A stretch of 64,000 nucleotides of DNA from Tersicoccus solisilvae. GTDB taxonomy: Bacteria; Actinomycetota; Actinomycetes; Actinomycetales; Micrococcaceae. The position numbers and the translations under genes were made by a program. Each line of letters opens with the position of its first letter. Position 1 is the stretch's first letter. The notes beneath the pieces are model-generated. The model searched no databases and was not told the DNA's origin. It saw nothing but the letters and a program-made list of their open reading frames with translations. Where the stretch lies: assembly GCF_014643255.1 (NCBI RefSeq), contig NZ_BMJI01000008.1, positions 1 through 64,000 on the forward strand. Reading direction: 5' to 3'. Of this stretch, positions 4,987-57,440 are shown piece by piece.

Positions 4987-5208
4987 GGGCTCAACATCAC
5001 TCCACGCGACAACGGCACGCAGGCGGGCGCCGTCGAGTGCCACGTGGTCCGGAGTGAATACTCCCGAACTTGCGTCCAGTATCCGATCGGTCTGACGTTC
5101 GCGCCTAAGCTAGCTAGCGCCCCCTAGGCGCAAGCTGGCAGGATATCCGTACCCGCGGCTAGGCGCCGAGGATGAAGTAGAGATTCACGGCTATGGGGAA
5201 GGTCGACA
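4987..5208. other. Left end of low-GC island, non-coding
   Basis: No gene is seen in these 222 bases. GCGCCTA (5101-5107) and TAGGCGC (5125-5131) form a 7-bp inverted repeat, and TAGGCGC recurs at about 5160, just before the metallopeptidase gene. GC is visibly lower than in neighbouring core genes. No integrase, transposase terminal repeat or tRNA is visible. A GGGAAGG Shine-Dalgarno sequence at the right end serves the next gene. Confidence 0.4.
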
Positions 5209-6378
5209 ATGACGCAGGACCCGTATCAGTTTCTTGAGCAATTGCAAGAACACATCTATTCTCAGCTTGGCGAAGCGCCGCAGGTATTCCCGGGGGACTT
5301 CTTGCTCGAGCAGGCTCGCCTTTTTCTGCGCGCTCGGCGACCGACCGCGCCTGCAGAAGAGATTGAGAAGGATGCCGAGGAGCTGGTGCGTGACATGGAG
5401 GAGGGTCCGGCCCCACGGACCCGCTTCGAGCACCCTGGCTGGTACGGCATTCTTCACTCCCTGTCGAACTGGATCGAGACTTCTGTGCAGACAATGGGCC
5501 TGCCTATGCGCGAATCCCCAGCCTTCGGCTCGTTGCCCACTGGTCAGGTCAACGCGATGACCATCGCCGTGCCGAACTCAGCAGATCACCTTGTCCTCTT
5601 TGAGGACCAATTGTTCATCTTCGCACTCCTTTTCAGCAAGGCGTTGGCTCGAGCTCTCCCAGTTAGGCGAACACCCGAGGGGGGACTCTTGTACTCAGTT
5701 GATAAAGATGAAGTGGCTGACCGCATTAGAGCCAAGAAGGACGTGGTCGAGCGCTTTGCAGACGTCGTCCTAGCCTATTCGATTTCAGGCCGCCCCAGCA
5801 ATGCCCGGCAGTATTATGTGGAGAGTGAATACTTTGCTCTGTCCGACACCATCAGAGAGTCAATGGAATGCTTTGTGCTGGGTCATGAGTACGGGCACGT
5901 AATCGGCATGCACCTCGGCGAAGCCGCGCGCAGCGCGGGCATGCTCGCCGCGGACGAGGTGGACGAAATTAACTACAACTGGATGCAGGAGCACGAAGCC
6001 GACATCTACGGTACCGCGCTGACGCTGCAGTCGATACACCGTGAACGACGCATTGAACCGGCTATGTGTTTCATTGGCGTGGATACATTTTTCAGCGCGA
6101 TGGACGTGATGGACAAGGCGACGTCGCTGCTACGTTCTGGCGACGAGAACGCGACGACCCTCGGATCACACCCCCCGTCGAGTCAGCGCCGCGAGGTGAC
6201 CCGACGGTTCCTAGACCGGATACTAGATCCTGAGCACGCGCGCAGTGCCGTCGAACTCGCCGAGAGCCTGCAGTTCGCCATGGAGCAGCTCTGGTCGGCG
6301 ACGCGTCCACTTCTCATGAGCGCCATGGAGCGGGGTGCGACCGCCGCGCCGCGATGGAGCGTTCGGAACTCAGGATGA
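5209..6378 (+). CDS. Putative zinc metallopeptidase (HEYGH), island cargo
   Basis: A 389-residue protein without signal peptide or clear membrane segments. Residues 226-230 are HEYGH, the HExxH zinc motif, and 31 residues later EHEAD (261-265) fits the ExxxD third-ligand motif of gluzincins such as M48. The N-terminal ~200 residues are not recognised. The start ATG follows GGGAAGG with good spacing. Codon use is less GC-rich than in the surrounding genes (many AT-ending codons), suggesting transfer. Its 3' end overlaps the convergent membrane-protein gene by 9 nt. Zinc peptidases in small islands are sometimes defence effectors, for example the Lit-type exclusion protease, but that role is only a possibility here. 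No defined substrate is apparent. Confidence 0.75.
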   Translation: MTQDPYQFLEQLQEHIYSQLGEAPQVFPGDFLLEQARLFLRARRPTAPAEEIEKDAEELVRDMEEGPAPRTRFEHPGWYGILHSLSNWIETSVQTMGLPMRESPAFGSLPTGQVNAMTIAVPNSADHLVLFEDQLFIFALLFSKALARALPVRRTPEGGLLYSVDKDEVADRIRAKKDVVERFADVVLAYSISGRPSNARQYYVESEYFALSDTIRESMECFVLGHEYGHVIGMHLGEAARSAGMLAADEVDEINYNWMQEHEADIYGTALTLQSIHRERRIEPAMCFIGVDTFFSAMDVMDKATSLLRSGDENATTLGSHPPSSQRREVTRRFLDRILDPEHARSAVELAESLQFAMEQLWSATRPLLMSAMERGATAAPRWSVRNSG

Positions 6379-6996
6379 GCAGCGCCCCACTACCTCCATT
6401 GCCACCACATCCTGCAGCGGAACCTTGCTCCTTGTCCCCGAGGCCTCCAGGGTGACCGAAGTGGCCCCTCCCTCGACCAGCTCGCCGCAGGTCCGATGCT
6501 GTTCCTGGTCCGTAATCTCTAGGTAGGCGGGAACCCCGCGGGGCCCATACCAGGTGACCCCTACCCCCGCCGCAAGCAACAAGAGGGTTAGAAACGTTAG
6601 TGTGACGGCCCACCTCAGGTCCCGACTGGCGGACTTTGCCCGCTCCCGCCGACGCTCCCGAAGATCGCCCGGTGATTGGCCCACGGGACGCTGCTTCGGG
6701 AAGCCGTAGGCAGCGCGCAGACTGAGTAGGGTGCCGACCGATGCAGCCCCCAGTGCCAACGCGAGCAGCACACCGACGAGAACCTGGGCACCTTGTGACA
6801 GGCCAACGATGGTGTCCCGCCCCTTGACGATGGAGACGGTGGTTATGAGCCCGAGAAGCGCCGACAGTCCATTCCGCCAGTTGGCCGCGTGCTGCCGGAT
6901 CTGCTCCAGTTCACTGGCTTGTAGTTCTTGGGCGGCCTCTGCGCGAGATCTGGTGAGTGCATCGCTCTCGGGTCCTGGCCGCACCTGAACAGGCAT
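6370..6996 (-). CDS. Two-TM membrane protein of unknown function
   Basis: A 208-residue protein. Residues 1-45 are charged and helical, with a Q/E/A-rich stretch suggesting a coiled coil. Two hydrophobic segments follow (around GAQVLVGVLLALALGAASVG and TLTFLTLLLLAAGVGVTWY) separated by a basic loop, then a soluble C-terminal domain of about 60 residues with YLEITDQEQHRTCGELV. The ATG at 6996 overlaps the TGA of the upstream zinc-ribbon gene by one base (TGATG), so the two are translationally coupled. Its function is not recognised. It is part of the low-GC insert. Confidence 0.7.
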   Translation of the reverse strand: MPVQVRPGPESDALTRSRAEAAQELQASELEQIRQHAANWRNGLSALLGLITTVSIVKGRDTIVGLSQGAQVLVGVLLALALGAASVGTLLSLRAAYGFPKQRPVGQSPGDLRERRRERAKSASRDLRWAVTLTFLTLLLLAAGVGVTWYGPRGVPAYLEITDQEQHRTCGELVEGGATSVTLEASGTRSKVPLQDVVAMEVVGRCSS

Positions 6997-50635: not shown

Positions 50636-50790
50636 CCCGCACGCCCCCGGGCCGAGCACGAGATTCCTCCTTCTGGCGCATCGGATGCACCACTTTCGTG
50701 GCTGCCGGTCGACGCCGGTCCGTTCCTAGGCTCGAAACCGAGCACGGCGCACCGGTCGTCTCACCCGCACCAGGCAACGCAGGAGGAACC

Positions 50791-51084
50791 ATGACCAGCA
50801 CCACCGCATCCCGGAAGACCACGCCGCAGAACCGGAAGGCCGCGGCCGTCGTCACCGGTCTCGCCGTCCTCGGCCTCGTCGTCGGCACGGCCGCCATCGG
50901 CGTCCTGGCCGCGGCGCTCGGCGGCAACGCCGTCCTGGCCGCCAAGGTCGTCGACGCGATCATCGCCGGCTCGACCGCGGCCACCATCGCCGCGATCCTG
51001 CTCTCCGGCGGCTTCGCCGGCATCGGCCTCTTCGCCGTCAAGTGGGCGCTGAAGACCGCCGGCCGCAAGGCGGCCATTGCCTGA
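50791..51084 (+). CDS. Circular bacteriocin precursor (carnocyclin/AS-48-like)
   Basis: A 97-residue precursor with perfect Shine-Dalgarno AGGAGG. Residues 1-16 are basic and hydrophilic and 17-37 hydrophobic (probable leader). From about residue 38/39 the sequence looks like a mature circular bacteriocin: small hydrophobic residues, KVVDAIIAGSTAATIAAIL (52-70), SGGFAGIG (72-79), cationic VKWALKTAGRKAAIA (83-97). Aligned at KVV, carnocyclin A (60 residues, KVVSLINAG) gives matching spacing to both ends, and the C-terminus resembles that of AS-48 (KRAVIAW). Predicted product: a ~59-60 residue head-to-tail cyclised, membrane-permeabilising saposin-like peptide. The cleavage site is inferred. 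The next gene is the DUF95/SpoIIM type always found with this family. Confidence 0.82.
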   Translation: MTSTTASRKTTPQNRKAAAVVTGLAVLGLVVGTAAIGVLAAALGGNAVLAAKVVDAIIAGSTAATIAAILLSGGFAGIGLFAVKWALKTAGRKAAIA

Positions 51085-51085
51085 G

Positions 51086-51676
51086 ATGGCGCTCTCGATC
51101 GGAACGAACCCGGTGAGCGGAGCGCTGCGCGCCCCGTTCACCGGGTTCATCGCCGTCGTCGGAGCCGTCTGCCTCGCCCTGTGCACCGCCGGGTACCTCG
51201 CCGGCGCGGACCTGTCGTCGCTGGCCGGTGAGCCCGGGCGCACCGGGTACGCCGGGCCGATGGACGCCCTGACGGAGATCGCCCTCCGCAACGGCAGCGC
51301 GGCGCTGGGCCTGCTGGCCGGGATCGTCACGTTCGGCCTGTTCTCGGGCGTGCTGCTTGGGGTGATCTGCCTGTACTTCGGGGTGCTCGCCCGGATCGCC
51401 CTCGACCTGCGCGGCTCGTCCTGGTGGTGGGAGTACCTGCCGTTCGCCTCGGTCGAGCTGCTGGGATTCCTCGTGATCGCGAGCGGCGGCATGTACCCGG
51501 CCGTCCGCAGCATCGCCGCCGTCCTCCGTCGCCCGCCCCGCGGGGGCGTGCTCGCCACCATCCTGCGGACCTACCTGACGACGACGGGCCGCCTGCTCGT
51601 CCCCCTCGCCGTCGGCGTCGGCCTGCTGGTCCTCGCATCCGTGCTCGAGATCCTCTGGGGAGTGACCTACTCATGA
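51086..51676 (+). CDS. SpoIIM/DUF95 membrane protein of bacteriocin cluster
   Basis: A 196-residue membrane protein with about 5 helices and the DUF95/SpoIIM pattern: AALGLLAGIVTFGLFSGVLL and LPFASVELLGFLVIASGGM, where the acidic residue in a mid-helix HxxxE/ExxxF-type motif is retained (VELLGF). Members of this family are required for maturation and secretion of circular bacteriocins (for example As-48C, CclD-like) in Firmicutes. ATG 51086 lies 1 nt after the precursor stop; a TTG at 51077 would overlap it. It ends overlapping the next gene (ATGA). Its role here is inferred from family and context. Confidence 0.82.
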   Translation: MALSIGTNPVSGALRAPFTGFIAVVGAVCLALCTAGYLAGADLSSLAGEPGRTGYAGPMDALTEIALRNGSAALGLLAGIVTFGLFSGVLLGVICLYFGVLARIALDLRGSSWWWEYLPFASVELLGFLVIASGGMYPAVRSIAAVLRRPPRGGVLATILRTYLTTTGRLLVPLAVGVGLLVLASVLEILWGVTYS

Positions 51677-52230
51677 GTGCATCCGCCCTGCCGTCGCTGC
51701 ACGCCGTTCCCGCGGGCCGCGATTCCTCCCGCCTTCCGGCCCGCGGGCGCTTGGTGCGCGCCGTCGTCGCCCTGGTTCCGTGGCTCGCGACGCTCGCCTA
51801 CGCGGCGGTGTCCCTGCCGCTGCTCGAACGGACGATCGCGACCGGCGGCACCGCCGCGGCCCGCGACCTGCCCGCGGTGGCCCTGACCGCGGCCACCGTC
51901 ACCACGGTGCTGATCGTCTGGTTCGGCGTCGGCATCAGCCAGTTGATCGCGGTCCACCTCGACCGCGGTTTCCGGCGCGCCGCGACGGCGCACCGGCCCG
52001 GCGTCGTCGGTCACGGACCGGCCCTGCTCGCCGTCAGCGGCGCCCTCGTCGTCGCGATGGCGGGCAACCTGATCAGCGCGGGCGCCGGAACGCCGCTGCC
52101 CGCCAAGATCGGCGTCGGCCTCGCCCTCGCCGCCGCCTACCTGCTGCTCACCCGCCGCGGCGGGCGCGGCACCACCGCCTGGCGGATCCCGTCCGCCGCC
52201 CTCGTCCTCGCGGTCGGGCTGTTCGCCTGA
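51673..52230 (+). CDS. Membrane protein of bacteriocin cluster (5 TM)
   Basis: A 185-residue hydrophobic protein with about 5 TM segments: LVRAVVALVPWLATLAYAAV, LTAATVTTVLIVWFGVGISQ, ALLAVSGALVVAMAGNLISA, IGVGLALAAAYLLL and AALVLAVGLFA. There are no recognised motifs. The ATG overlaps the SpoIIM stop (ATGA), so translation is coupled. It probably belongs to the export or immunity machinery of the circular bacteriocin; the exact job is unknown. Confidence 0.7.
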   Translation: MSASALPSLHAVPAGRDSSRLPARGRLVRAVVALVPWLATLAYAAVSLPLLERTIATGGTAAARDLPAVALTAATVTTVLIVWFGVGISQLIAVHLDRGFRRAATAHRPGVVGHGPALLAVSGALVVAMAGNLISAGAGTPLPAKIGVGLALAAAYLLLTRRGGRGTTAWRIPSAALVLAVGLFA

Positions 52231-52265
52231 CCGCTCCACCGATCCCCGACCAGGAGGTCTCCCCC

Positions 52266-52649
52266 ATGTCCACCACCGCACCCGCTCCGGCCCACCCCGC
52301 CCTGCGCGTCGGCGCCACGGCCCTGCTCACCGTGCAGGTGCTCGCCGCCGTGATCCACGGCGCCCTGGAGCTGACCGCCGGCGGACCGGGCTCGGGGGAC
52401 GGGGCGCTGCCCGCCCTGCGCTGGATCGCGCTGGTCGGCGTCGCCCTCACCGTGGTGGCCGGCGGCATCGCCCTGGCCACCCGCCGGGTGTGGGGGCCGC
52501 TCGCCGTGACCGCGGGCATCGCCTCCCTCGTGGCCGGCGTGATCATCTCCCGCCTGCCCGACGGCGGTGCCGTCGGCATCGTGCTCGCCATCGCGGCCAT
52601 CGGCTCGCTCTGCGTCGCCTTCGCCCGCCGGACCCCGTCCTCGTCGTGA
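52266..52649 (+). CDS. Small membrane protein, candidate immunity protein
   Basis: A 127-residue protein with four hydrophobic segments (about residues 11-31, 43-65, 67-89 and 96-118). AGGAGGT precedes ATG 52266, the strongest ribosome site in the cluster after the precursor. Small hydrophobic proteins of 50-130 residues in circular bacteriocin loci often confer producer immunity, so this is the best candidate, though it is less cationic than most known ones. Its stop overlaps the permease GTG (GTGA). Confidence 0.6.
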   Translation: MSTTAPAPAHPALRVGATALLTVQVLAAVIHGALELTAGGPGSGDGALPALRWIALVGVALTVVAGGIALATRRVWGPLAVTAGIASLVAGVIISRLPDGGAVGIVLAIAAIGSLCVAFARRTPSSS

Positions 52650-54202
52650 TCGATCCCGGCGGCCCGGCGTCGTGGTGTCGGGCGGTGCGCTTCGTGGCCA
52701 CCGCCGACGCCCGGCTCTGGGCACGCCGCCACAGCCTGCCGATCGGCGGGGCGACGCTGCTCGTCGCCGCCGCCGTCGCGGCCGGGTGCGGGGCGGTCGT
52801 CGCGGTCGCGGTGGCCTCGCTGGGGGTGCCCTGGCTGCGCGGCACCACCGTCCTCGACGCCGTGCTCCCGGCGGACCTCGACCGGGGCGGCGCCCTGCTC
52901 GGGATCGCCGTGGCCGGCGTGCTCGGCCTCAGTGTGGGGCGCGTCCTCGGCGCGATGCTGCCGGGCCGGCGGCGGGAGGTCTGGCTGCCGGCCGACCGCC
53001 GCGTGCTCCGGCAACTCGGCGTGCCCGTCGGCGCCGTGGCGCTCGTCCGGGTCGGCATCGCCGCGGTCCCCGGACGACTGCCGGTCGTCGCGGCCGCGGC
53101 CGGCGTCCTCGGCGTCCTCGCGGGGCCGGCCGTCGCGGTCCTCGCCCTCGCCCTGATCCTCACCGCCGAGATCACCGCCCTGGCCGTGCTCCGGTCGTCC
53201 CCGCCGGCCGCGGCGAGGCGGGGCTGGGCGCCGCATCCGGGCGTCCTCGCCGTCGCCGCGATCGCCGGCGTCGCCCTGGGCGTCGCCGTGCGCCCGTGGC
53301 TGCGCACCCCGGAGGCGCTCGTCGCGACGCTGAACCAGCTCAGCAGCGCCATCGGCGCGGCACTCGCACCCCTGTTCGGCTCCGCCCTGGCGGCATGCGC
53401 CCTGCTCGCCGTCGCGCTCCTCGTCCGCGACCGCGGCGGGCGACGACGGCACCGGCTCGTGGTCGAGCACCAGCCCGCGGCTGCCCGGACGCCCCTGCGG
53501 CCCACCCGCACGATGCTGCTGGCCCAGTGCCTGGACCGGTCCGCGAACGGGGGCGCCGACGCCATCCGCGGCCTGTTCCGCGCCCTGATGGTGGCGGGTT
53601 GGGCCGGCCTGGGGCTCGCGATCGGGCTGAACGGCGCCGTCGCCTCCGTGGTCGACCACCAGGTCGTGGTGAGCCTGATCGTCCTGCTCGTCGTCACGGT
53701 CACCATCACCATCGCCGCGATCGTCGGCGCCCGCCGGCACCTGCCCACGATGCAGTGGCTGGTCCGCAGCGGCGCCGCCCAGGGCGACGTCGTCCGGATC
53801 TTCCACGGCGGCTACGCCCTCGTCGTCGTGGCCGTCACCGCGCCGGCGACCCTGGCGGCCGCCGTGCTGGCCGCGTCCGGCGAACTGGCGGTCGTCGCCG
53901 TCGCCGCCCCCGTCCTCGGCGTCGCCGCCGCCCAGCTGTGCGGCCTCGCCGACCCCGCCCCGGTCCGGGAGCCTGACGGCACGGTGCAGCCGGGTCTGCT
54001 GGGCGTCCTGGGCGGCCCCCTGCTGACCATGGCGGGCTGCGCGCCCGCGCTGGCCCGCGGCGTCGTGCCAGCGACCGCCGTCCTGCTCGTCACCGGCGTC
54101 GTGGCCCTGGCCGCCGTCCTGTATCTGAGGAGAGTTCTGACATGGACACCGTCATCACCGTGGACCGGCTCACGGCCGGCTACACCCAGCATCCCGTCCT
54201 GA
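52646..54202 (+). CDS. Large polytopic permease of bacteriocin cluster
   Basis: A 518-residue membrane protein with about 12 hydrophobic helices in several blocks and Arg-rich loops (GRRREVWLPADRRVLRQLG; DRGGRRRHRLVVEHQ). It has no ATPase motifs. It is probably the membrane partner of the downstream ABC ATPase. GTG 52646 overlaps the upstream stop (GTGA). The 3' end runs 61 nt into the ATPase gene in another frame. The family is not recognised beyond general ABC-2-like character. Confidence 0.7.
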   Translation: MIDPGGPASWCRAVRFVATADARLWARRHSLPIGGATLLVAAAVAAGCGAVVAVAVASLGVPWLRGTTVLDAVLPADLDRGGALLGIAVAGVLGLSVGRVLGAMLPGRRREVWLPADRRVLRQLGVPVGAVALVRVGIAAVPGRLPVVAAAAGVLGVLAGPAVAVLALALILTAEITALAVLRSSPPAAARRGWAPHPGVLAVAAIAGVALGVAVRPWLRTPEALVATLNQLSSAIGAALAPLFGSALAACALLAVALLVRDRGGRRRHRLVVEHQPAAARTPLRPTRTMLLAQCLDRSANGGADAIRGLFRALMVAGWAGLGLAIGLNGAVASVVDHQVVVSLIVLLVVTVTITIAAIVGARRHLPTMQWLVRSGAAQGDVVRIFHGGYALVVVAVTAPATLAAAVLAASGELAVVAVAAPVLGVAAAQLCGLADPAPVREPDGTVQPGLLGVLGGPLLTMAGCAPALARGVVPATAVLLVTGVVALAAVLYLRRVLTWTPSSPWTGSRPATPSIPS

Positions 54203-54810
54203 CCGACGTCGGGTTCACCACCGGGCCCGGCATCACGACGCTGACCGCCCCCAACGGCCGCGGCAAGTCCCTGCTGCTCTCCGTGATCGCCGGGGTGATC
54301 GCCCCCCTGGCCGGCTCGGCCACCGTGCTGGGTCGCCCGGCCGAGGACCCCCGGCTGCACCGTGAGCGCACCTGGACCCCCGCGGAGCCGCCCCTGTTCC
54401 CCGAGCTGACGGTGCGCGAACACGTGGACCTGCTGGCCGGGTTGGCCGGCCGGCCCACGGCGCCGTGGGTCGAGGCCGCCGAGCGGTACGGCCTGCACCC
54501 GTGGTGGGACTACCCGGTCGGCGATCTGTCGACCGGGAACCGGCAGAAGGCCAACCTCGTGCTCACCTCGTCCGCGCCCGCCGTCGTCCGGCTGCTGGAC
54601 GAGCCGTTCAACGGCCTCGACACGGCGGCCCGGGCCGTCCTCGCGGGGCAGGTGCAGGCGTGGGCCGACGCCGGCGCGTGCGTGCTGCTCACCCACCACG
54701 GTGCGGACCTGCCGTGGCCGCAGGCCCGCCGGGTCGATCTGCTCGAGACCGGCACCGCGGCCGGCACCGCTGCCGGCACCGCTGCCGAGGCGCCCGCCGG
54801 GCCGGCCTGA
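54142..54810 (+). CDS. ABC transporter ATPase of bacteriocin cluster
   Basis: A 222-residue ATP-binding protein. Walker A reads APNGRGKS, with Ala instead of the usual first Gly. The signature is DLSTGNRQKANL, Walker B is VVRLLDEPFNGLD and the H-loop VLLTHHGADL. The C-terminus ends in a GTAA repeat. GAGGAGAG precedes the ATG. The gene overlaps the permease by 61 nt. Circular bacteriocin clusters typically include such a cytoplasmic ATPase, acting with the DUF95 protein and permease in export and self-protection. It ends the operon, convergent with the amylase gene. Confidence 0.82.
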   Translation: MDTVITVDRLTAGYTQHPVLTDVGFTTGPGITTLTAPNGRGKSLLLSVIAGVIAPLAGSATVLGRPAEDPRLHRERTWTPAEPPLFPELTVREHVDLLAGLAGRPTAPWVEAAERYGLHPWWDYPVGDLSTGNRQKANLVLTSSAPAVVRLLDEPFNGLDTAARAVLAGQVQAWADAGACVLLTHHGADLPWPQARRVDLLETGTAAGTAAGTAAEAPAGPA

Positions 54811-54832
54811 CGGACCGGCCCGGCGCCGCGCG

Positions 54833-57328
54833 TCAGGTGACGCTGACGACGTGGGTGGCGTGGTCGTACGTGAACGTCACCGACCGCGGCGCCGCCACGT
54901 GCAGGGCGATGTTGCCGCCGTTCGGAGCCCCGCCCTCCCCGTAGTTCTCGTCCCACTTCTTGTTCAGCGCCGCCTTGTACTCGTAGTCCCCGGCGGGCAG
55001 GGTGACGGTCAGCTTCCACAGCCCGGTGGCCGGGTCCTTCGTCATCTGCGCTTGGTCGCAGGTGGGATCCCAGTCCCCCGCGCAGCCCATCTCGGAGTTC
55101 AGCGATCCCGCGACGGCGACGTTCGTCGGCTCCGGGGTCGGCACCGGGCCCGGCGGCGTCGGCGTCACCGGCGTGGGCACCGTCCCGGTCGCCGGGGCGC
55201 TGGCCGACACGTGCCTGGCGTTGTCCAGGACGAGGGACCGGTACTCGACGGTGGTGCCCGGCGTCAGGGCGCTCGTGTCGTGGAACACCTGGTAGGGCGC
55301 GGTGTCGTCCGTGCCGATGTTCTGCCACGCCCCGCCGGGGGTGCGCGCCTGGAACGTCACCTCGTAGAAGGATGAGCCGGCGACGTCCGACCGCACGTTC
55401 ACCCGGGTGTGGTCCGCGCCGGCCGTCTCGACGGCGCTGATCCGCGACGTCGGGGCGGCGTGCGAGGGCCGGATCCGCCCGTTGGACGCGTACACGGTGG
55501 CCGAGAGGGCGGACGCGCTCAGCCGCACGGTCCCGGCCCGGTCGCTGAGCGCGTGCTTCGCCCCGGTCCCGTAGACGCGGGTGAACATGCCGCGCGGGAC
55601 GAACGTGGTGATCGGCGCCGTCCTGGCCGTGGTGCTGTTGTTGAGGACGACGACGTACTCGCGCTGGGTCGCCCGGTCGATCCGGGAGAAGGCGTAGATG
55701 CCCGGGCCCGAGTCCGCGTACCGGTTCTGGTGGGCACCGTTGCGCAGCGCCGGGTACCGCTTCGTCAGCGCCGACAGTTCCGCGATGCTGCGGTACAGCG
55801 GCCGGGACGTCACGAAGTTGTCGGTCGCGTGGGTGGCCGTGGTGCCGATCAGGTCGTCGTCCAGGTAGTCGGAGACCTTCGAGGCGAACATGGTCTGCCG
55901 GGCGAACTGGTCGCCGCCCGATCCGGTGAAGCCCTGCTCGTCGCCGTAGTAGATCACCGGGTTGCCGCGCGAGAAGTACATCAGCTCGTGCGCCAGCCGG
56001 TCCTTCGCCAGCCAGACGCCGTCACCGGCGTTCGGGTTGTCCGCCTGCAGGAAGGACCCGATCCGGCCCATGTCGTGGTTCCCGAGGAACGTGGGCAGCT
56101 GGTAGACGTTCGAGTCGGCGTCCGTGTACCAGTCGTCGCCCGCGAAGAACGCCTGCAGGTCGGCCGCGGACGTGCCCTTCGACGCGAAGTTGCGGGCCGC
56201 GTCCTGGAACGGGAAGTCGAGCACCGACTGCATCCGGTTCGTCGTCGTGTACCGGCTGGTGAAGTCCCGCGTGGTGTCGTACACCTCCCCGAACATGAAG
56301 AACTGGCTCTTGCCCACGTCGTGCGCGAACTGCAGCACCTGCGGCCCGAACTTCTGCCAGAACTCGTCGTTGACGTGCTTCATCGTGTCGATGCGGAAGC
56401 CGTCGATGCCGAAGTCCTTGATCCAGGTCTCGTAGATGTCGATCATGCCGTCGACCACCTGCGGCTTCTCGGTGAACAGGTCGTCCAGGCCGGCGAAGTC
56501 GCCGTACGTGGAGTTCTCGCCCTGATAGGTCGTGTTGCCGCGGTTGTGGTAGTTCGTGACGTCGTTGAGCCAGGCCGGGACCTTGAGCGTCTTCTCGGCC
56601 GGGTCGAGCACCGGGGTGTACGGGAAGGAGACCGCCGGATCCAGCGGCGGGAAGGTGGAGGTGCCGGCGTAGTCCCGGTCGTCGAACGGGGTGCCGTCGG
56701 CGGCCTTGTAGGGGAACAGCGCCTTGGTGATGTAGTTCGTCCGGTCGCCCTGGGTGTAGCCGATGACGTCGGCGGTGTGGTTGGTGATGATGTCGAAGTA
56801 CACCTTCATGCCGCGCCGGTGCGCGGCGGCGATGAGGGTCTTCAGCTCGTCATTGGTGCCCAAGTGCGGGTCGATCTTCGTGAAGTCGGTGATCCAGTAC
56901 CCGTGGTACCCCGCCGACGGACCGTCCTCCTGCTGGACCGCCTTGTTGGTGAAGCTGGGGGTCAGCCAGATCGCCGTCGTGCCCAGCCCCTTGATGTAGT
57001 CGACCTTGGAGGTCAGGCCCTTCAGGTCGCCGCCGTTGTAGTAGCCGCGATTCGTCGGGTCGAAGCCGGAGACGTCCGGGTCCGCGCCCAGGTTGCCCGT
57101 GTCGTTGGCGGTCGAGCCGTTGGCGAACCGGTCCGCCATCACGAAGTAGAAGTTCTCGTTGGTCACGGGCGCCCGCAGGGAGTGGCCCGCGACGGCGGCG
57201 GACGACGGCGGCGAGGGGTGCGGGCGCGGCCGGGCCTGCGCGGGACCACCCGCCCCCAGCAGTGTCGTCGTCAGGGCCGCCGTCAGCACGGCGGCCAGGG
57301 CAGCGCGAGAGAAGCGTCGAGGGCGCAC
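54833..57328 (-). CDS. Secreted GH13 alpha-amylase with C-terminal starch domain
   Basis: An 831-residue exported glucosidase that cleaves alpha-1,4-glucans. A signal peptide ends near AQA/RP (residue 32). GH13 catalytic residues are D314 (GFRIDTMKHV), E348 (MFGEVYDT) and D419 (LGNHD), and ITNHTAD is the conserved first region. An amylase beta domain follows. After about residue 640 come an Fn3-like stretch, a P/T linker and a C-terminal SusE/X25-like domain (NSEMGCAGDWDPTCDQAQM, YEYKAALNKKWDENYG) as in amylopullulanases. GTG 57328 is preceded by GGAGGT. No maltogenic-amylase N domain is evident, so endo-type alpha-amylase is preferred. Confidence 0.92.
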   Translation of the reverse strand: MRPRRFSRAALAAVLTAALTTTLLGAGGPAQARPRPHPSPPSSAAVAGHSLRAPVTNENFYFVMADRFANGSTANDTGNLGADPDVSGFDPTNRGYYNGGDLKGLTSKVDYIKGLGTTAIWLTPSFTNKAVQQEDGPSAGYHGYWITDFTKIDPHLGTNDELKTLIAAAHRRGMKVYFDIITNHTADVIGYTQGDRTNYITKALFPYKAADGTPFDDRDYAGTSTFPPLDPAVSFPYTPVLDPAEKTLKVPAWLNDVTNYHNRGNTTYQGENSTYGDFAGLDDLFTEKPQVVDGMIDIYETWIKDFGIDGFRIDTMKHVNDEFWQKFGPQVLQFAHDVGKSQFFMFGEVYDTTRDFTSRYTTTNRMQSVLDFPFQDAARNFASKGTSAADLQAFFAGDDWYTDADSNVYQLPTFLGNHDMGRIGSFLQADNPNAGDGVWLAKDRLAHELMYFSRGNPVIYYGDEQGFTGSGGDQFARQTMFASKVSDYLDDDLIGTTATHATDNFVTSRPLYRSIAELSALTKRYPALRNGAHQNRYADSGPGIYAFSRIDRATQREYVVVLNNSTTARTAPITTFVPRGMFTRVYGTGAKHALSDRAGTVRLSASALSATVYASNGRIRPSHAAPTSRISAVETAGADHTRVNVRSDVAGSSFYEVTFQARTPGGAWQNIGTDDTAPYQVFHDTSALTPGTTVEYRSLVLDNARHVSASAPATGTVPTPVTPTPPGPVPTPEPTNVAVAGSLNSEMGCAGDWDPTCDQAQMTKDPATGLWKLTVTLPAGDYEYKAALNKKWDENYGEGGAPNGGNIALHVAAPRSVTFTYDHATHVVSVT

Positions 57329-57369
57329 GGTGTACCTCCGCAGGAGAAAGGCCCGGGTGATGATGCCTC

Positions 57370-57399
57370 AGCGTGACCTGTCTCACATCGGGGTGTCAA
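57370..57399 (-). promoter_or_regulatory. Promoter of the amylase gene
   Basis: On the minus strand TTGACA (57399-57394), an 18-nt spacer and CACGCT (57375-57370), giving a leader of about 35 nt before GTG 57328. Divergent from the cls promoter 30 bp away. No catabolite or MalR-type operator is recognised with confidence. Confidence 0.45.
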
Positions 57400-57440
57400 C
57401 CGCGGCGCGAGGGTGAGGAGCGCGTCGATACACTGCGACA

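Follow-up and report, generated by a model that had tools for sequence, protein, structure and literature searches.

What does a run of six genes in Tersicoccus solisilvae, an actinobacterium of the family Micrococcaceae, make? The genes lie head to tail in a single direction at positions 50791–54810 of the 64,000-nucleotide stretch of DNA analyzed here (the window), which belongs to contig C8 of a 3.34-Mb genome. A preliminary description of this DNA had read them as an actinobacterial circular-bacteriocin system. Circular bacteriocins are stable antibacterial peptides, and nearly all described cases come from Firmicutes. We found support for the claim in a family of homologues, in the linkage of their genes, and in matches to enterocins NKR-5-3B and AS-48. 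In all probability, the cassette makes and exports a head-to-tail cyclized bacteriocin of the AS-48/circularin A/uberolysin kind, with cyclization and activity extrapolated from known systems. Its features, with lengths in amino acids (aa) and the basis of each assignment, are as follows.

50791..51084, + strand: putative circular-bacteriocin precursor, 97 aa (hydrophobic leader 1–38, predicted core 39–97)
50905..51081, + strand: predicted core peptide L39–A97, 59 aa (register against NKR-5-3B and AS-48; codon differences)
51086..51676, + strand: SpoIIM/DUF95-like polytopic membrane protein, 196 aa, putative As-48C counterpart (family hhalign)
51673..52230, + strand: membrane protein, 185 aa, at the position and of the size of As-48C1 (41% identity to the Haematomicrobium copy)
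52266..52649, + strand: small membrane protein, 127 aa, candidate immunity or accessory protein (hydropathy; position)
52646..54202, + strand: polytopic membrane protein (permease), 518 aa, GTG start at 52646, putative role in processing or export (hydropathy; hhalign)
54142..54810, + strand: ATP-binding cassette (ABC) transporter ATPase, 222 aa, putative As-48D counterpart (PF00005, 58.5 bits; hhalign)
50639..54831, no strand: whole cassette, with limits set by the empty site in a congener (G002)

A recurrent gene combination in the Micrococcaceae

Searching 99 relatives with the SpoIIM-like protein led to two genomes, G010 (44% identity) and G028, each with a small precursor-like gene immediately upstream of the SpoIIM-like gene. 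G010 is Haematomicrobium sanguinis DSM 21259 (Micrococcales; Micrococcaceae), which retains the full six-gene order. A profile made from the three precursors recovered 22 homologous precursors with an expectation value (E) below 1e-8; they come from 19 of the 395 Micrococcaceae genomes searched. Relatives of the system are scattered through ∼5% (about 1/20) of the species of this family. We compared the 12-kb surroundings of the precursor loci and found a SpoIIM-like gene at every one of them, and a related ABC ATPase at all except one, which lies on a 3.9-kb contig. The SpoIIM-like gene directly follows the precursor in 19 of the 21 loci of the six-gene type, and it is usually followed in turn by membrane proteins of ∼190 and ∼135 aa, then by a permease of ∼520 aa and the ATPase. 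Because the combination of precursor, SpoIIM-like protein, and ATPase recurs in 18 other Micrococcaceae genomes, the cluster is no chance arrangement. The precursor is conserved beside a DUF95-type gene in related genomes, as the preliminary description had anticipated.

Other searches delimited this family. A scan of the 395 Micrococcaceae genomes with PF09221 hit 20 of them, 15 over the cut-off, and missed the window's genome. Among named genomes, a pattern search based on the single precursor found no match and one based on the three-sequence alignment found Haematomicrobium only; the plasmid collection yielded no match. An order- and phylum-wide search added two solid matches in other Micrococcales families and one weak match elsewhere, and the family is therefore concentrated in the Micrococcaceae. 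A weak P0002 match in genome G054 (L005/L008) was judged unrelated, with no precursor adjoining it.

The relatives also vary in copy number and neighborhood. Locus L050 (G263) has tandem precursor genes at 5720–6313, the second one diverged, and genomes G187 and G432 have two separate precursor loci each. Genes that from their sequence read as response regulators stand just upstream of two loci (L054, 7089–7748; L037, 4976–5653), and one that reads as a sensor kinase stands downstream of another (L006, 1490–2800); neither kind adjoins the cassette in the window. Another Micrococcaceae genome carries a complete AS-48-type cluster, L053 (G184 C2:155500–167700), composed of a precursor (5824–6288, ending in RKAVIAW), a 617-aa B-like protein, SpoIIM, a C1-like protein, an ATPase, a 54-aa D1-like protein, and a second ATPase. 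Its precursor scores 79.9 bits against TIGR03651, and G343 contains a second PF09221 match of a strength similar to that of the L053 precursor.

The precursor and its predicted core

Scanned on its own, the window precursor scores 17.1 bits (E 0.005; cut-off 30.7) against TIGR03651, the circularin A/uberolysin family, and 14.7 bits (cut-off 23.6) against PF09221 (Bacteriocin_IId). Both sub-threshold matches span the C-terminal ∼58 residues in the correct register, which takes in the whole core. The profile check proposed in the preliminary description was thus borne out for the family, many members of which match PF09221 over the cut-off, but not for the window precursor itself. The identity we propose rests on the homologue family and not on the profile scores of single proteins.

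Against a leave-out profile of 18 other precursors, from which those of the window and Haematomicrobium were excluded, the window precursor scored 32.4 bits in a match along its entire length, compared with at most 12.7 bits among 20,000 composition-preserving shuffles and −1.0 for the reversed sequence. When a profile of 20 family members was compared with solved structures, it matched NKR-5-3B (2mp8) at E 8.6e-7 and AS-48 structures at E 4.3e-4 and 2.8e-3; besides these two peptides, no solved structure matched under E 0.1. All but one of the 20 members match TIGR03651 as well as PF09221 at E ≤ 0.1. Of nine other precursors of the six-gene type scanned singly, none passes TIGR03651 and several pass PF09221; several of the 22 precursors fall under the thresholds of earlier mining.

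The core had been placed at residues 38–97. Because column 31 of the alignment corresponds to residue 2 of the mature peptides, we instead predict a core that runs from Leu39 to the C-terminal Ala97, a register supported by the alignments to mature NKR-5-3B, AS-48, and PF09221. NKR-5-3B, the closest solved relative of the precursor family, has the same start register; its core is 64 residues long compared with 59, and its C terminus lies one residue beyond the Ala at which the Micrococcaceae cores end. This enterocin is of Firmicutes origin. The predicted window core has a net charge of +4 and a calculated average mass of 5548.6 Da linear and 5530.6 Da cyclic. Circular bacteriocins as a class are recognized by a leader of 2–48 aa plus a homologous core; the window precursor has a predicted 38-aa leader and 59-aa core, with the homology established at the family level. 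Across the loci, the leader follows a pattern: Gly is invariant at −11, and position −1 is Trp or Tyr in 19 of the 21. The window and Haematomicrobium precursors have Val at −1, and their core is ∼35% identical to those of the other loci.

We also modeled the core with AlphaFold2, using a two-sequence input. The model is helical and of low confidence (predicted local distance difference test, pLDDT, of 64.8). AS-48 was the only bacteriocin that Foldseek matched to it, and weakly so (E 9.3; template-modeling scores of 0.53/0.46); a second comparison with AS-48 gave a Z of 4.1 with 48 aligned residues and a root-mean-square deviation of 4.0, level with unrelated bundles. The model speaks neither for nor against the saposin-like fold of four or five helices that marks the class.

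Purifying selection on the core

The 59 core codons of the window and Haematomicrobium differ by 26 synonymous and four amino-acid changes, and the other five cassette proteins are 21%–43% identical between the two genomes. The same synonymous excess is present in other locus pairs. Across 210 pairs drawn from 21 loci, the core averaged an identity of 0.55, against 0.30 for the 29 residues preceding it and 0.36 for the SpoIIM partner, whose identity it exceeded in 198 pairs. The core is under strong purifying selection, and the synonymous excess therefore marks it as a genuine product under constraint rather than DNA that was swapped in recently.

Membrane proteins and ATPase

The four membrane proteins of the cassette, the SpoIIM-like protein among them, match nothing in Pfam or NCBIfam at E ≤ 1. 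We assign the second gene to the SpoIIM/DUF95-like proteins by transitivity through its family. Taken as a pair, the window and Haematomicrobium proteins match the family from the other loci with an hhalign probability of 98.9% and an E of 2.4e-17; in that family, a PF01944 match at E ≤ 1 is present in 15 of 19 members. The SpoIIM/DUF95 label of the preliminary description thus holds when the family is joined, but not as a direct Pfam match. Of the relatives scanned singly, only the protein of the AS-48-type cluster passes PF01944 (60.2 bits); the others score 17.9–24.2 bits (cut-off 26.9) or have no match. A PF01944 scan of the window's own genome returned as its sole match another SpoIIM gene on a different contig, and a Foldseek search with a model of the SpoIIM-like protein returned no significant match.

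Hydropathy points to three further polytopic membrane proteins, which recur in relatives. The permease aligns with those of the other loci over 387 columns (hhalign probability 95%), and the 185-aa protein matches proteins at the same position elsewhere weakly (E 0.005, probability 7%). The 127-aa protein has no convincing match in the other loci, is 21% identical to its Haematomicrobium counterpart, and shows no similarity to D1 of the AS-48-type cluster. Most loci have a ∼135-aa membrane protein at its position, and we regard it as a candidate immunity protein. The sixth gene encodes an ordinary ABC ATPase that matches the ATPases of the other loci (hhalign probability 100%, E 8.5e-40) and that of the AS-48-type Micrococcaceae cluster (E 5e-19).

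Proposed mode of action and alternatives

For the cleavage site, cyclization, export route, activity, and immunity, we extrapolate from characterized relatives. In the AS-48, garvicin ML, leucocyclicin Q, and NKR-5-3B systems, a DUF95 protein, polytopic membrane proteins, and an ABC ATPase remove the leader, close the ring, and export the peptide (PMC6131525, PMC5695211). By analogy, the hydrophobic leader of 38 residues would mediate insertion of the 97-aa precursor in or at the membrane, cleavage would take place ahead of Leu39, and the freed N terminus would be joined to Ala97 by membrane machinery, probably the SpoIIM-like protein together with the 518-aa polytopic protein. Export would be driven by the ABC ATPase with one or more membrane proteins, a part we provisionally assign to the 185-aa protein (the As-48D/C1 positions). 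The resulting 59-residue, +4, very hydrophobic helical ring would permeabilize the membranes of competing Gram-positive bacteria, with self-protection provided by the 127-aa membrane protein, the SpoIIM-like protein, or both. How leaders are removed, rings closed, and peptides exported, including which protein closes the ring, is still unsettled in the field.

Several observations weigh against a circular bacteriocin. The window precursor and the SpoIIM-like protein are both under every curated cut-off. The cassette has no typical 50–100 aa cationic immunity protein; a small cationic hydrophobic immunity gene is absent from some known circular-bacteriocin clusters too (PMC5695211). With single-sequence AS-48 profiles, which make a weak test, no resemblance was detected between the 518-aa protein and As-48B or between the 185-aa protein and As-48C1. 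The core model is of low confidence (pLDDT ∼65) and its AS-48 match is weak, and conservation is higher in the core than in the machinery, the opposite of what an arms race would lead one to expect. This conservation over the SpoIIM partner (198/210 pairs), with its mostly synonymous divergence, would also suit a cyclic peptide of circular-bacteriocin ancestry that serves the Micrococcaceae as a signal or as a self-directed membrane-active peptide and not in killing, as would the lack of an apparent small dedicated immunity gene. We consider such a role unlikely: A patchy presence (∼5% of species; absent at the congeners' site) better suits a dispensable competition trait, and the precursor, processing, and export gene content is that of characterized bacteriocins.

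Less likely still is a peptide that is processed and exported yet linear, as a leadered or leaderless-like linear helical bacteriocin. Leaderless bacteriocins do share the fold without cyclization (PMC6131525) and are encoded alongside membrane-associated proteins (PMC11580447), but a DUF95/SpoIIM-type protein is described as defining the circular class and as absent from leaderless clusters (PMC11580447), and the precursor here has a long leader and sequence homology to circular peptides. Single profile scores under the cut-offs and a low-complexity precursor might, finally, suggest an unrelated operon that encodes an ABC transporter and small membrane proteins rich in Ala and Gly, with a bacteriocin resemblance that is compositional. 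We give this almost no credence, given the recurrent linkage with SpoIIM-like and ATPase genes and the whole-core register with NKR-5-3B; for the precursor, a compositional artifact was rejected by the shuffle test (a maximum of 12.7 bits in 20,000 shuffles vs. 32.4).

Relation to known systems

The cassette has in common with the enterocin AS-48 cluster (as-48A,B,C,C1,D,D1,EFGH) a precursor, a DUF95/SpoIIM protein, an ABC ATPase, and further membrane proteins. It differs in its order, A-C-(C1)-x-(B)-D, and in having no recognizable D1 or EFGH immunity genes. Earlier mining, which found such systems almost only in Firmicutes, reported two precursors from Actinobacteria (PMC8534725) and, in another survey, five clusters from propionibacteria and one AS-48-like cluster from Micrococcus luteus (PMC5695211); these predicted clusters are few, and represent the same kind of system in the same phylum. 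PF01944 served as a filter in the latter survey (PMC5695211), and loci of the present kind may be little reported because of it. The novelty claimed in the preliminary description survives in part. We found no experimentally characterized actinobacterial circular bacteriocin in the open-access literature, outside which most subscription journals lie, but a few actinobacterial clusters had already been mined. The window locus is a divergent member of a known family, in a lineage that prior surveys rarely reported.

It is conceivable, at somewhat less than even odds in our judgment, that the Micrococcaceae hold a lineage of their own, compact and of six genes, in which the leader pattern is shared and a distinct set of membrane proteins replaces As-48B, C1, and D1. 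Within the Micrococcaceae type, the window and Haematomicrobium loci make up a divergent branch. The leaders of circular bacteriocins have been called too disparate for a motif (PMC6131525); if the lineage is real, the shared leader would offer a sequence handle on recognition for leader removal and ring closure. With leaders that can be aligned and a single compact set of genes, the 22 actinobacterial precursors provide comparative material for cleavage and cyclization as well as new peptides.

Gene layout and genomic site

All six open reading frames of the cluster as first described are present, and the precursor has the strong ribosome-binding site noted for it, AGGAGG at 50781–50786, 4 nucleotides (nt) ahead of the ATG. 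A 1-nt gap separates the precursor from the SpoIIM-like gene, which overlaps the gene for the 185-aa membrane protein in an ATGA; a 35-nt gap then leads to the 127-aa gene, which overlaps the permease start at 52646 by 4 nt. Gaps and overlaps had been put at 1–36 nt, but the permease frame ends at 54202 and thus overlaps the ATPase gene by 61 nt. GC content at third codon positions is 0.94–0.97 in all six genes, normal for real genes of the window, and the GC content of the cassette (0.71–0.80) is no lower than in the flanking DNA. A scan for consensus promoters and terminators found none.

The alignment with congener G002 stops at window position 50638, just past a DinB-type gene, and resumes at 54832, at an amylase-like gene; the cassette is absent from this site and a different gene is in its place. 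Congener G001 lacks both the cassette and the neighboring secreted alpha-amylase-like gene (window 50648–57422 vs. L064), and its flanks are joined within ∼50 bp. Given this presence and absence at the same site in congeners, the cassette is a discrete unit that was gained or lost. Inverted repeats with CATCTATTGACGAGCTGGC arms, of which there are none near the corresponding site in the window, occur in L063 as three copies of a ∼70-bp pair (5069–5139, 5693–5762, and 6754–6824), where they bracket the DinB-type gene and the gene found in congener G002 in place of the cassette.

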